A DNA stretch of 64,000 nucleotides from Polytrichum commune. Its lineage: Eukaryota; Streptophyta; Polytrichopsida; Polytrichales; Polytrichaceae. The translations under genes were made by a program, and so were the position numbers. The stretch covers positions 29,326,001-29,390,000 of the forward strand of contig OX485803.1 of NCBI GenBank assembly GCA_950295325.1. Direction: 5' to 3'. This document shows, in pieces, positions 10,278-63,254 of the stretch (position 1 is the first letter of the stretch; each line of letters opens with the position of its first letter). The notes under the pieces were generated by a model. It was not told the DNA's origin and searched no databases. It saw nothing but the letters and a program-made list of their open reading frames with translations.

Positions 10278-10848
10278 GGGTTGCTTCACACTATGGGCGA
10301 AGGTCGAGAGGCCAATAATTTCCACCAGTCAAATTGCAAGAAACCAAAAACTTGGCCTCTCAACTCTTCACACTAGAGGCCAAAGTCCAAAGGCCGTTGT
10401 AATTTAAAATGCTTACATAGCATTACTTTTTGACCAAGGTAACGAATTCTCGAAGGAAGTTTGGGTTGGACAAGAATGGAAACCCAAACTATGGCCAAGA
10501 GGCTGTTGATTTTTTTTCATAACAAATTAAAACAATTGACCAAGATCTTGGCCGTTAGATTGGAGGAATGTTTTTGGAGGGACAAATCATATGGATTTGG
10601 ACTTTGGGCTTGACCTTTGGAGACTTCACACTATGGCTGTCCAAGTCAAGAGACCGTGGGAGTTCATGGCCGAAGGTTTGGACTTTGGGCTTGGCCTTTG
10701 GAGGCTTCACACGTACTATGCTTGGCCGAAGGCTCCAATTCCAGTATTTTATTGGCTATTTTCAGCCCATTTCTTTGGACTCTCAACAAAGTTTGGCCAT
10801 TCAATCCCATGGCCTCTCAACCTGGACAACCGTAGTGTGAAGCAACCC
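10278..10848. mobile_element. Tourist-like (PIF/Harbinger) MITE, copy A
   Basis: The 571-bp element has terminal inverted repeats beginning GGGTTGCTTCACACTA at both ends and is flanked by TAA at 10275-10277 and 10849-10851, the 3-bp target duplication typical of PIF/Harbinger. It has no coding capacity. A second copy of the terminal sequence (CTTCACACTATGG) lies inside at about 10625, and the part from there to 10848 matches, in inverted orientation, the element at 62807-63254. Copy A is therefore probably composite or nested. Confidence 0.8.
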
Positions 10849-10851
10849 TAA

Positions 10852-11629: not shown

Positions 11630-11856
11630 TTGAGAGTATCAAAGAATAGTAGACCCTACATACACCCCATAAAAGTCTTGGATGAAAAAGAACATCGTAA
11701 TTTTGGTTTGGGAAAATACAAAAAAATGAAAAATGAAAAAGATTGTGGATTTGAATGCTATGTAAAAATATTCTTATAATAAATAAATAAATCATTGAGA
11801 AAGTAAAGTTGATTATAAATTTCTAAAAGAAAAAAGTTTACTTTTAGGTGTATCAC

Positions 11857-11864
11857 TATATAAA
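11857..11864 (+). promoter_or_regulatory. TATA box of the RING gene
   Basis: TATATAAA lies 68-75 bp upstream of the ATG at 11932, a normal plant core-promoter distance. It argues against the in-frame ATG at 11848, which lies upstream of the box. Confidence 0.6.
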
Positions 11865-11931
11865 AGGGAGACATACTCACATGACATACATTGATGTTTA
11901 TACTTCTGGACAATTTCTAAAACTCTTGAGC

Positions 11932-12603
11932 ATGGATTCAATCAATCTCGCTCCACATGAAAATGTAGGGTGTGCATTTCAATGCAATATTTGTCACAAT
12001 CTCCCTACAAGTCCAATCTCCACAACATGTGGACATTTGTTTTGTCAGTCGTGCATTTATTCATGGTCACAATCCATTGGACACATTGTTTTTCCATGTC
12101 CCAAGTGTGGGGCCCCATCTGTATATGATTACATGGTACCTCTGTACGGGCGTGGAGTTGATCCTCCCACGACTCCTCTTCCAAAGGCTGTCAAAACTAA
12201 TATTGTGGAGAACATGATTCCTTCTCCTTCTTTTGTACCTCGAGGAATTTGGAGGGATCCTATCCTAGAGGCCATTGCTAGTGTTCGTAGTGAAAAAGGA
12301 GATTGTGCCAATCTTTGTCGCGCTAAGGTTTTAGCTGAACATCCTGAACTTAGATGGAAGGTTATTGAAGGTGTTTTTTCAAGTATAAAACAACAACAAC
12401 AAAAAAACTTGCAACTTGCTAGTTGTCAATTGCACACCGACCACTTCTTGTTGGTTTGCATTTTGGAAAGTTGTATCATCTTTGAAGAAATGCGAGGTGT
12501 TCCTTATCAAAGTAGAAACAATGTTGCTATGGTACTTGAAGCTTTAGAAGACATGGAGCTCGAACTTGTTGATTTGCATTTTGGAAAGTTGCATCATGTT
12601 TGA
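11932..12603 (+). CDS. RING-HC (RMA/RNF5-like) E3 ubiquitin ligase, intronless, tail altered by a duplication
   Basis: The predicted 223-residue protein has an N-terminal C3HC4 RING finger with zinc ligands C18, C21, C33, H35, C38, C41, C56 and C59, followed by VPLYGRG at about 75-81. That combination resembles the RMA/RNF5 membrane-associated ubiquitin ligases, which attach ubiquitin to ER proteins. No C-terminal membrane helix, the family's usual anchor, is visible. The start at 11932 is chosen because a TATA box lies about 70 bp upstream. The tail (residues ~95-220) is not recognised. A 118-bp tandem duplication (12447-12682) shifts the frame, so the protein now ends HFGKLHHV at 12603, while the original C-terminus continues in another frame to a stop at 12800-12802. 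The gene has no introns and sits between long direct repeats, so it may be a captured or retroposed copy. Whether it is functional is unknown. Confidence 0.7.
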   Translation: MDSINLAPHENVGCAFQCNICHNLPTSPISTTCGHLFCQSCIYSWSQSIGHIVFPCPKCGAPSVYDYMVPLYGRGVDPPTTPLPKAVKTNIVENMIPSPSFVPRGIWRDPILEAIASVRSEKGDCANLCRAKVLAEHPELRWKVIEGVFSSIKQQQQKNLQLASCQLHTDHFLLVCILESCIIFEEMRGVPYQSRNNVAMVLEALEDMELELVDLHFGKLHHV

Positions 12604-12682
12604 AGAAATGCGAGGTGTTCCTTATCGAAGTAGAAACAATGTTGCTATGGTACTTGAAGCTTTAGAAGACATGGAGCTTGAA
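12447..12682 (+). repeat. 118-bp tandem duplication inside the RING gene
   Basis: Copy 1 is 12447-12564 and copy 2 is 12565-12682; they differ at only about five positions. The unit is not a multiple of three, so the second copy is read in another frame, where EEMRGVPYRSRNN is followed by about 40 further codons that are probably the ancestral C-terminus. Confidence 0.92.
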
Positions 12683-16154: not shown

Positions 16155-16480
16155 ATGTAAGGTATGTGGGTGTTATTTGGTTCATCTTTCACGTTCTCCA
16201 ACTCTACCAACTAGATTTACACAACCTAGCTCGTTCCGCATTAGCAAATCTACGATGAAACATCTGCAAAAACCGGGGTGAAAAATTGGACCTCCCTTGA
16301 TTTGGTTATGATTATCAGAAGTGCATGTTTGTTGATTTCTCAATTGAATACATAGGTCCTCTCAATCGTGTGCACTATTTGAGTGTAGAGTAGATATCAA
16401 TAATTACGTAATCCAATGCCTTTTTAAAACGTGTGTGTTTATGATGTTTGCTCTTTGATGCTCACCGGACCACATACCAA
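16155..16480. repeat. Dispersed repeat, copy 1
   Basis: About 325 bp matching 50655-50975 in the same orientation; both contain GTATGTGGGTGTTATTT, then tagatttacacaac, then GAAACATCTGCA, then GTGCATGTTTGTTGATTTCT, then gatgtttgctctttga or -taa. A partial third copy lies near 63640-63760. There is no coding capacity. Confidence 0.75.
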
Positions 16481-48914: not shown

Positions 48915-48916
48915 TA

Positions 48917-50544
48917 CAGTGACTACCAAAACTGAGTACAAACACAACATATTGAAATTCAACAAACAATGTAAGGAAATTGGATGCACCAAAAATGAAA
49001 CCATAAATTGCATAGGATTACCATTGCAATCAGTCATACTTCCATGGGAATTGAGGCCTATTACACACAAGTATGCATGTACAAACAAAAAGTAAAGTGA
49101 AGTTCAATCCAAGACTCAGTTTTGCTCACACAAGCTGGAAGAAAGTTAAAAATTTGTCCACCTACCCTTAGCAGCTATAACAACTGCAATGTGCTTAGGC
49201 ATGCTCCTATACAAGTTCTTACACTCATTGGGAGTAATTGAAGCCCAACAATCCTCAACACGCTCCCACAATTCTAACTTTCCTTTGGGAGGTCTCTCAT
49301 ATTGGTTTAGTCGACGTTTTAAAGTTGCCCACAAGTGTTCGATCGGATTCAAGTCTGGAGAATGCGCCGGCCACTTCAAAATAGTAAATTCTTGCGAATT
49401 CAGCCAATGGCGCACACTCTTGGATGTATGTTTCGGGTCATTATCATGTTGAAAAATCAAATTGGTAGGATCCAAATTGTATGCATGTAGCGTATGAATC
49501 AACTCTTGCTCTAAAATTTCTCTATACATGTACTGATCCATTCTTCCCTCAATCCTACACATCATACCAGGGCCACTCGGAGTCATGCAACCCCACATCA
49601 TCACTCCCCCACCTCCAAACTTGACAGTTTGTTGCACCATTCCAGCACTTCTACTATGTCCATCACGAAACCAACACCAACTGCGACCATCAGAGCAAAA
49701 TCGGTTGAATTTTATTTCATCGGAGAATACTACACGATCCCAATCATCAGTCCAATGGCAATGATGTCTAGCAAATTCTAATCGTCCCTTAATTTGAAGA
49801 AGTGTGAGCTTTGGTTTCTTTTGCTTCACTTTACATTTCAAACCTGCTTTTCGTAACACTCTCCTCACAGTACTATCGCTCATACCAACATGAAGCTCTT
49901 CTCTCAAGTAATTTCCAACTTTGTGTGCAGTTTCTAAGCCACCCACAGTGATTTCTCTCACACAAGCTCTACGATCAACTGCATTGTACACCTGTGGCCT
50001 GCCACCAAAACTGTGATTGACATCACTCAATTCACTCAAATGTTGCTTACGAAATTGTGCAACCCAACTTTGGGATACCTGTAAGTCTCTGGCAACATTT
50101 CTAGTACTTTCACCCCTCCTCAACTTCTCTAAAGTAGCTTCTTCTATTTGCTTTCTACCAGCGGCAAAGAGAGACCTCAATGAAACCATTTTGCTCAATT
50201 TGCATACATAATGTGCACTGAATGGGGACACAATTATAAATGTGAAGGCCAAGAACATGCCCACCCAAAAAATCAGACCCAAAAAACCACTTGTACATGT
50301 CAAATTTGTAGCATTCATTGCGTAATCCAAGTGTGAGCATAATTGAGTTTTGGAGCTAATTTACTTTGATCTAGATCTTTCTCAAATTATCTTGCATTGT
50401 TGGACTTGTAATTTGGTAGCCACATCATTTACATGCATGTATACTTAAGCCGTCAACTGATTTGGCATTAAATGCAATAAATTATAAAATATGAATGGTT
50501 AAAGGTAGACTAGGCTTTTTTGTACTCAGTTTTGACAGTCACTG
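48917..50544 (-). mobile_element. Complete Tc1-like (DD34E) transposon
   Basis: The element is 1628 bp. Its 26-bp terminal inverted repeats start CAGTGACT and match at 24 of 26 positions (left 48917-48942, right 50519-50544). TA lies directly outside both ends (48915-48916 and 50545-50546), the TA target duplication of the Tc1/mariner superfamily. Weaker inverted similarity extends inwards to about 49140 and 50325, giving diverged terminal repeats of about 220 bp. Near their inner ends is a second pair of repeats, minus-strand TGTGAGCAAAACTGAGTCTT at about 49114-49135 and plus-strand TGTGAGCATAATTGAGTTTT near 50330-50351. One intact transposase gene fills the middle. The element sits in a locally repeated block. 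Confidence 0.93.
49146..50189 (-). CDS. Tc1-family transposase, DD34E, intact
   Basis: The protein cuts and pastes the surrounding element at TA sites. From the ATG at 50189 it has 347 residues, the usual Tc1 size; the open frame extends 47 codons further up to 50330, but that part is hydrophobic, overlaps the inner terminal repeat and is probably untranslated. The N-terminus has a helix-turn-helix (STRNVARDLQVSQSWVAQF) and a second one (STVRRVLRKAGLKCK). The catalytic triad is intact: D in VVFSDE, D in FQHDNDPKH, and E in SPDLNPIEHLW, with exactly 34 residues between the second D and the E. The glycine-rich KFGGGGVMMWG follows the first D. DD34E marks Tc1 rather than the DD39D mariner-like elements usual in plants. 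From memory, the KFGGGGVMMWGCMT and GRSW-W-RDG context resembles fungal Tc1-like transposases; this is not tested. Confidence 0.93.
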   Translation of the reverse strand: MVSLRSLFAAGRKQIEEATLEKLRRGESTRNVARDLQVSQSWVAQFRKQHLSELSDVNHSFGGRPQVYNAVDRRACVREITVGGLETAHKVGNYLREELHVGMSDSTVRRVLRKAGLKCKVKQKKPKLTLLQIKGRLEFARHHCHWTDDWDRVVFSDEIKFNRFCSDGRSWCWFRDGHSRSAGMVQQTVKFGGGGVMMWGCMTPSGPGMMCRIEGRMDQYMYREILEQELIHTLHAYNLDPTNLIFQHDNDPKHTSKSVRHWLNSQEFTILKWPAHSPDLNPIEHLWATLKRRLNQYERPPKGKLELWERVEDCWASITPNECKNLYRSMPKHIAVVIAAKGRWTNF

Positions 50545-50654
50545 TACCTATATGTGCAGAGAGAGTTTCCAACCTACGAAGGCCGTGAAGGAAACCGGTA
50601 TAATTGTGGACTATGTAGGCACCATAATAGCTTTAGCAACATATTGGATACATC

Positions 50655-50975: not shown

Positions 50976-51264
50976 AATCTAGGGGTCTGATTGAGAAAAC
51001 GAACCATTCAACCTTAAATTGTTGATAGAAAGAATCATGTGGAATGGTGGGTAATAAGCCCAGTTAGATTATGGGCTATTATTAGACAAGGCTGACCTTC
51101 AATCCTAGTTCACTTTAACATAACACACTGCCTAACATGCGGTGTAACTGGGGAAGTGATTCTCATACCAAAAGTTGAACTTGCTCGGATAACTTGGTGT
51201 AAATTGAGTCATATAGAAGGGGAAGCTTTGGTCCTCTAAAACCAAAACAAAAAAAGGCCCTACC

Positions 51265-51328
51265 AAGCTTTGAACTCGGGCTCTTGGATTCAAAGTCCAA
51301 TGACATAACCACCGAGGTATTTTGTCTA
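51265..51328 (-). pseudogene. Decayed tRNA-Gln copy
   Basis: The anticodon-arm sequence TTGGACTTTGAATCCAA and most of the T arm (cccgagttcaaagct) match the tRNA gene at 52734-52805, but the acceptor stem and D arm are broken. It lies at the equivalent place of the neighbouring repeat unit. Confidence 0.8.
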
Positions 51329-52733: not shown

Positions 52734-52805
52734 AGGCCCCACCGAGATTCGAACTCGGGCTCTTGGATTCAAAGTCCAATGTCGTAACCACTAGACTATG
52801 GGGCC
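52734..52805 (-). tRNA. tRNA-Gln (anticodon TTG)
   Basis: The 72-nt gene folds as a full cloverleaf: acceptor stem GGCCCCA paired with TGGGGCC, a D arm with AGTGGTTA (A box), anticodon stem TTGGA/TCCAA around the loop CTTTGAA with anticodon TTG (reads CAA), and T arm with GAGTTCGAATCTC (B box). A TTTT pol III stop follows at once on the minus strand (52734-52731), so the discriminator base shares the first T. There is no intron and no encoded CCA. It looks intact and nuclear-type. Confidence 0.93.
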
Positions 52806-62803: not shown

Positions 62804-62806
62804 TTA

Positions 62807-63254
62807 GGGCCACTTCACACTATGGCCGTCCAAGTCGAGAGGCCGTGGGATTGAATGGCCAAACTTTGTTCATAGTCCAAAGAAATGGGTCAAAAATAAC
62901 CTATAAAATATGGGAATTGGAGCCTTCAGCCAACCATAGTGTGAAGCTTCCAAAGGCCAAGCCCAAAGTCCAAACCTTTGGCCATGAACTCCCACGGCCT
63001 CTTGACTTGTACCCTAGCCACACCAGAGGGGTCCAGCTAGCGGGGCAGGGTTTAGGGTCTAGCAGGTCCAAACTTTCTTCGAGCGTCCGTCACCTTGGTC
63101 AAAAAATATTGCCATGAAGGCATTTTGGAGAGCGGCGACCTTTAGACTTTGACCTCTAATGTGAAGGGTCGAGAGGCCGAATTCTTGGTTTCTTACAATC
63201 CGATTGTTGGAAATCGATGGCCTCTCGACCTTTGGCCATAGTGTGAAGCGGCCC
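62807..63254. mobile_element. Tourist-like MITE, copy B
   Basis: The 448-bp element has inverted ends GGGCCACTTCACACTATGGC and GGGCCGCTTCACACTATGGC (one difference in the first 20 bases) and TTA on both sides (62804-62806, 63255-63257). Its left half matches, inverted, the inner part of copy A (10625-10848), including GGCCAAGCCCAAAGTCCAAA. It is non-coding. Confidence 0.88.

Follow-up and report, generated by a model that had tools for sequence, protein, structure and literature searches.

The presence of an apparently complete Tc1-type (DD34E) transposon at positions 48917-50544 of a moss genomic sequence raises the question of whether this element is a recent, still active arrival, possibly of fungal origin, or an ageing resident of its host. 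An initial examination of the letters and open reading frames, hereafter the sequence-only reading, had considered DD34E elements to be typical of animals and fungi and foreign to plants. That view is out of date, since Tc1-like DD34E elements were described in 2014 in the moss Physcomitrium patens (PpTc1 and PpTc2) and in nine angiosperms (PMC4054914). Furthermore, a fungal connection with transfer was proposed in 2016 for Mariner2_PPa from P. patens (PMC4905642), and in 2020 for PpTc1/PpTc2 (PMC7466625). Owing to these publications, most of the surprise of a moss DD34E element is gone, and a transposon in a plant is not surprising as such. The analysis reported here establishes that the locus holds a real, host-integrated, ageing Tc1 (DD34E) transposon. 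It is very probably a cut-and-paste element from a family of about 13 copies, named here family A, which spread in one burst in the moss genome and is now decaying.

The element measures 1,628 bp and is bordered by TA on either side (48915-48916 on the left and 50545-50546 on the right). It starts with CAGTGACT and finishes with AGTCACTG, giving a CAGTG...CACTG outline. Its 26-bp terminal inverted repeats (TIRs), the left one, CAGTGACTACCAAAACTGAGTACAAA, at 48917-48942 on the plus strand and the right one at 50519-50544 on the minus strand, are identical at 24 of 26 positions. The TA sites, the terminal repeats and the exact coordinates were therefore correct as first read. When the 408-Mb genome was searched for an extended TIR pattern, with 3 mismatches at most allowed, 22 occurrences were obtained, against none for the reversed control, which indicates that the TIR match is not due to chance.

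On the minus strand, a frame running from the ATG at 50189 to a stop at 49146-49148 (feature 49146-50189) codes for a transposase of 347 residues with an N-terminal helix-turn-helix region. The catalytic triad consists of D157, D249 and E284, the last two being separated by 34 residues, and confirms the uninterrupted DD34E transposase that had been claimed. Pfam searches returned DDE_3 (9e-19) and HTH_Tnp_Tc3_2 (3e-12), with PF13358 and PF01498 above the Pfam cut-off and PF13384 below it. The closest solved structure is the catalytic domain of Sleeping Beauty (E 2.5e-46), followed by Mos1, and in a tree whose outside sequences were Sleeping Beauty and IS630 only, the transposase groups with the former against the latter. 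An AlphaFold model was discarded for its low confidence (pLDDT 45), for which reason the fold assignment rests on sequence homology. Tc1 elements are characterised by a TA duplication with CAGT...ACTG ends, and by a single intronless transposase of about 340 residues, combining helix-turn-helix and DDE domains, within 1.3-2.4 kb; the element at 48917-50544 displays all of these features.

The window, that is, the whole 64-kb stretch of DNA that was analysed, is a piece of a 77.9-Mb contig in the 408-Mb assembly, which has seven chromosome-sized contigs among those listed. A very abundant host repeat, with about 4,300 candidates genome-wide, extends from 50656 on, about 110 bp past the right end of the element, and a stretch related to it is found at 16158-16479. 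The window also contains a tRNA-Gln(TTG) gene (52734-52805), with a decayed duplicate of this region at 51215-51312, about 1.5 kb off and 83% identical, and an inverted repeat pair (10639-10851 and 62804-63012) whose arms lie 52 kb apart and are 85-95% identical. A RING-finger-like frame (11848-12603) has at its end a tandem duplication of 118 nt with 96% identity (12447-12682).

With regard to the state of this copy, the sequence-only reading had called it intact. Its frame is open and its ends and TA sites are present, but the region round the first catalytic Asp (residues 147-161; 49707-49751, minus strand) carries lesions that are private to it. A one-codon deletion just upstream of this Asp has changed TDDDW to TDDW, with the loss of one D that is kept in all ten other copies covering the spot, and the substitutions T159I and I161F fall inside the conserved SDETKINRF motif at the same Asp. 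Judging from conservation, the codon loss and T159I probably make this copy a poor source of active enzyme. Compared with the other family copies, it harbours 26 private changes, 18 of which are of the C-to-T type (6 in CG, 8 in CHG and 4 in CHH contexts). Among the 17 private coding changes, 3 are synonymous and 14 nonsynonymous, close to the 77% nonsynonymous expected under neutrality, and the probability that no stop would arise from that many changes is about 0.27. The private changes thus look like neutral decay driven by cytosine methylation, and in view of their pattern, of that probability and of the catalytic-region lesion, the recent activity that had been deduced from the absence of stops is not supported. 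The private divergence of 1.6% corresponds roughly to 1-2 million years, assuming 1e-8 changes per site and year. Among the members of family A observed, this copy alone combines an open frame with two ends. Another one, at 19.17 Mb on C6, has an open frame and no left end, and of the 12 siblings 11 are broken or incomplete.

Family A as a whole comprises about 13 copies spread genome-wide, with 94-98% nucleotide identity. They occupy separate sites with unrelated flanks on six of the seven chromosome-sized contigs (C1 and C3-C7). The full-length copies each lie at a TA, and several copies have been cut by later insertions. Pairwise distances among the six longest copies are star-like (0.030-0.042), and transitions are about five times as frequent as transversions. 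Such near-equal distances with a transition excess fit a single burst in the past and subsequent decay through methylation, and family A is an ageing resident group, not a fresh arrival. No non-autonomous (MITE) relatives were found in the pattern search of the 408-Mb genome, all 22 TIR ends belonging to the 13 known copies. A search with both flanks of the element for a corresponding empty site yielded no clean one, the left flank being unique and the right flank passing into a highly abundant repeat of the host.

About 100 further transposase matches of lower identity, many of them badly decayed, are spread through the genome, where they form at least three lineages besides family A. A tree of 30 loci has four main groups, A to D, which have in common CAGTGA ends, a TA duplication and a length of about 1,590-1,630 bp; only about 45-57% of residues are common to family A and the other lineages. 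Within the tree, L051 and L053 (node 95/97), two decayed relatives present in this genome, fall with family A. Lineage B (L013-L016, L018 and L019), one locus of which, L013, has kept an open frame of 340 residues, has a mean distance of 0.021, compared with 0.22 for lineage C and 0.34 for lineage D. Lineage B is younger than family A, and C and D are much older. Tc1-like elements are thus long-standing residents of this moss, where they have spread in repeated waves.

This record bears on the proposal that the moss lineage recently acquired family A by horizontal transfer, the donor being a fungus or some other eukaryote, and that a small burst ensued. Its low copy number, its divergence of 3-4% and the limited proportion of residues in common with the other lineages are compatible with such an entry, as is the placement of the P. 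patens Tc1-like elements with fungal ones (PMC7466625, PMC4905642). However, the nearest relatives of family A in the tree are the decayed copies L051 and L053 of the same genome, and the age and wide distribution of lineages C and D show that related elements have long been resident. The genome has at least four lineages that differ in age, with these two decayed loci among their members, and this argues against a single recent entry; we are inclined to doubt a recent transfer without dismissing it. That family A is linked to fungal elements is plausible, given what has been published for PpTc1/PpTc2 (PMC7466625) and Mariner2_PPa (PMC4905642), and a horizontal origin is possible. Searches of viral contigs, bacterial genomes and phages gave no useful relatives, and a plasmid search returned only IS630-type matches at about 25-30%.

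That the element, or the contig, might instead come from a moss-associated fungus had been raised on an impression of fungal style in the transposase. Against this, the 77.9-Mb contig that contains the window carries a split amino-acid-kinase gene of plant type, the element sits about 110 bp from a repeat with thousands of candidate host copies, and its 13 family members are distributed over six chromosome-sized contigs, which leaves contamination with a negligible probability. A further explanation, in which selection on a domesticated host gene has held the transposase frame open, could account for an open frame among mostly broken siblings. Yet both TIRs and the TA have been retained, the private changes are neutral in pattern (14/17 nonsynonymous, with a fair chance of no stop), and conserved catalytic-motif residues are altered; domestication is accordingly very improbable. 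We thus favour a cut-and-paste transposon of a resident, decaying family.

As compared by length, ends and ORF size only, the element resembles PpTc1 and PpTc2 in its moss host, DD34E triad, CAGT...ACTG ends and TA duplication; these measure 1,584 and 1,709 bp with a 338-residue transposase (PMC4054914), versus 1,628 bp and 347 residues here. They also underwent a burst, with about 2% divergence from the consensus (PMC4054914), as family A did, PpTc1 reaching 85 copies versus 13. Their host belongs to another moss lineage. The genome under study contains three LEAFY genes (L061-L066), at least one with H312/R345 and at least one with D312/C345, combinations which we take to denote type I and type II, respectively. 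The two residue sites have been named previously, type II being known from mosses and one liverwort, and the two types are found side by side in non-Bryopsida mosses, among them Polytrichum commune (PMC6588583). The host of the element, having both types, is hence probably not a member of Bryopsida. A set of seven chromosomes would agree with Polytrichaceae. The PlantMar elements of flowering plants belong to the same Tc1/mariner superfamily and also have a plant host, but they carry a DD39D triad instead of the DD34E found here (PMC7325037), and none were found in bryophytes in that study (PMC7325037).

The ends of these elements have an additional feature. Lineages B, C and D carry a second, inverted copy of the 15-bp TIR core (positions 10-24), whose edge lies some 193-195 bp inward of the end and which matches at 12-14, 13-15 and 10-13 of 15 positions, respectively. 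This inner core is present in nearly every B, C or D copy with a readable left end; L013, L015, L016 and L018 (1269-2870), L024 and L011 have an inverted copy at both ends, at +193 to +195. Direct inner repeats of the Sleeping Beauty type had been suspected first, but the direct reading is not significant in B, C and D (p 0.3 to 0.97), and the inverted one (p 0.02 to under 0.0002) was adopted. These lineages do not show the IR/DR arrangement of at least two direct sites per end with TIRs of 200-250 bp. The inner site of family A reads almost as a palindrome, CAAAACT-C-AGTTTTG, and its orientation is ambiguous. In the copy at 48917-50544, the left inner repeat (49111-49125, minus strand) matches the inverted core at 11/15 (p about 0.0006); the right one (50339-50353, plus strand) is degenerate (9/15) and not significant alone as a TIR-core copy (p 0.14). 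The two pair with each other over 24 nt at 88%. The DNA between outer and inner sites is unalignable in five of six between-lineage comparisons, implying that the inner site has been kept and its surroundings have not, and it follows the outer core of its own lineage.

The simplest reading is that the inner site represents a putative second transposase-binding site at each end. By homology to Sleeping Beauty, the N-terminal helix-turn-helix domains would bind the TIR core of each end as well as its sub-terminal copy some 195 bp inside the end, the ends so bound would be brought together as a pair, and the DDE domain would cleave at the CAGTG tips; the element would then insert at a TA, which would be duplicated. 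Sleeping Beauty, a fish Tc1 element of the IR/DR group, has the same D-D-E layout and two transposase sites per end, one outer and one inner. Its sites are direct repeats (PMC7827188), whereas the moss inner site is inverted (B-D) or palindromic (A) and has only a core of about 15 bp in common with the outer one. Bari and Minos, also from the IR/DR group, have direct repeats (PMC3828361). The zebrafish Tc1-like DrTRT combines a short TIR with a 23-bp sub-terminal inverted repeat pair (PMC5630946); it is a DD37E element, unlike the present one, and in the parts of that report consulted its sub-terminal repeat is not described as a copy of the TIR core (PMC5630946). A shallow literature search gave no description of a head-to-head layout of the TIR core. 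We tentatively put forward, as a suggestion that could well prove wrong, that moss Tc1-like elements have four-site, head-to-head ends, with an inverted TIR core fixed at +193 to +195 that has been kept, and co-varies with the outer core, across lineages in which the remaining non-coding DNA cannot be aligned.

If true, head-to-head ends would imply a geometry of the synaptic complex unlike that of the direct-repeat IR/DR ends of Sleeping Beauty, and the conserved inverted inner sites, if bound by the transposase, would constitute a variant end architecture. In other respects, these results add a second moss lineage, probably one outside Bryopsida, to the hosts of Tc1-like DD34E elements, which came there in several waves of different ages, and this record makes the published idea of fungus-to-moss transfer testable across mosses.
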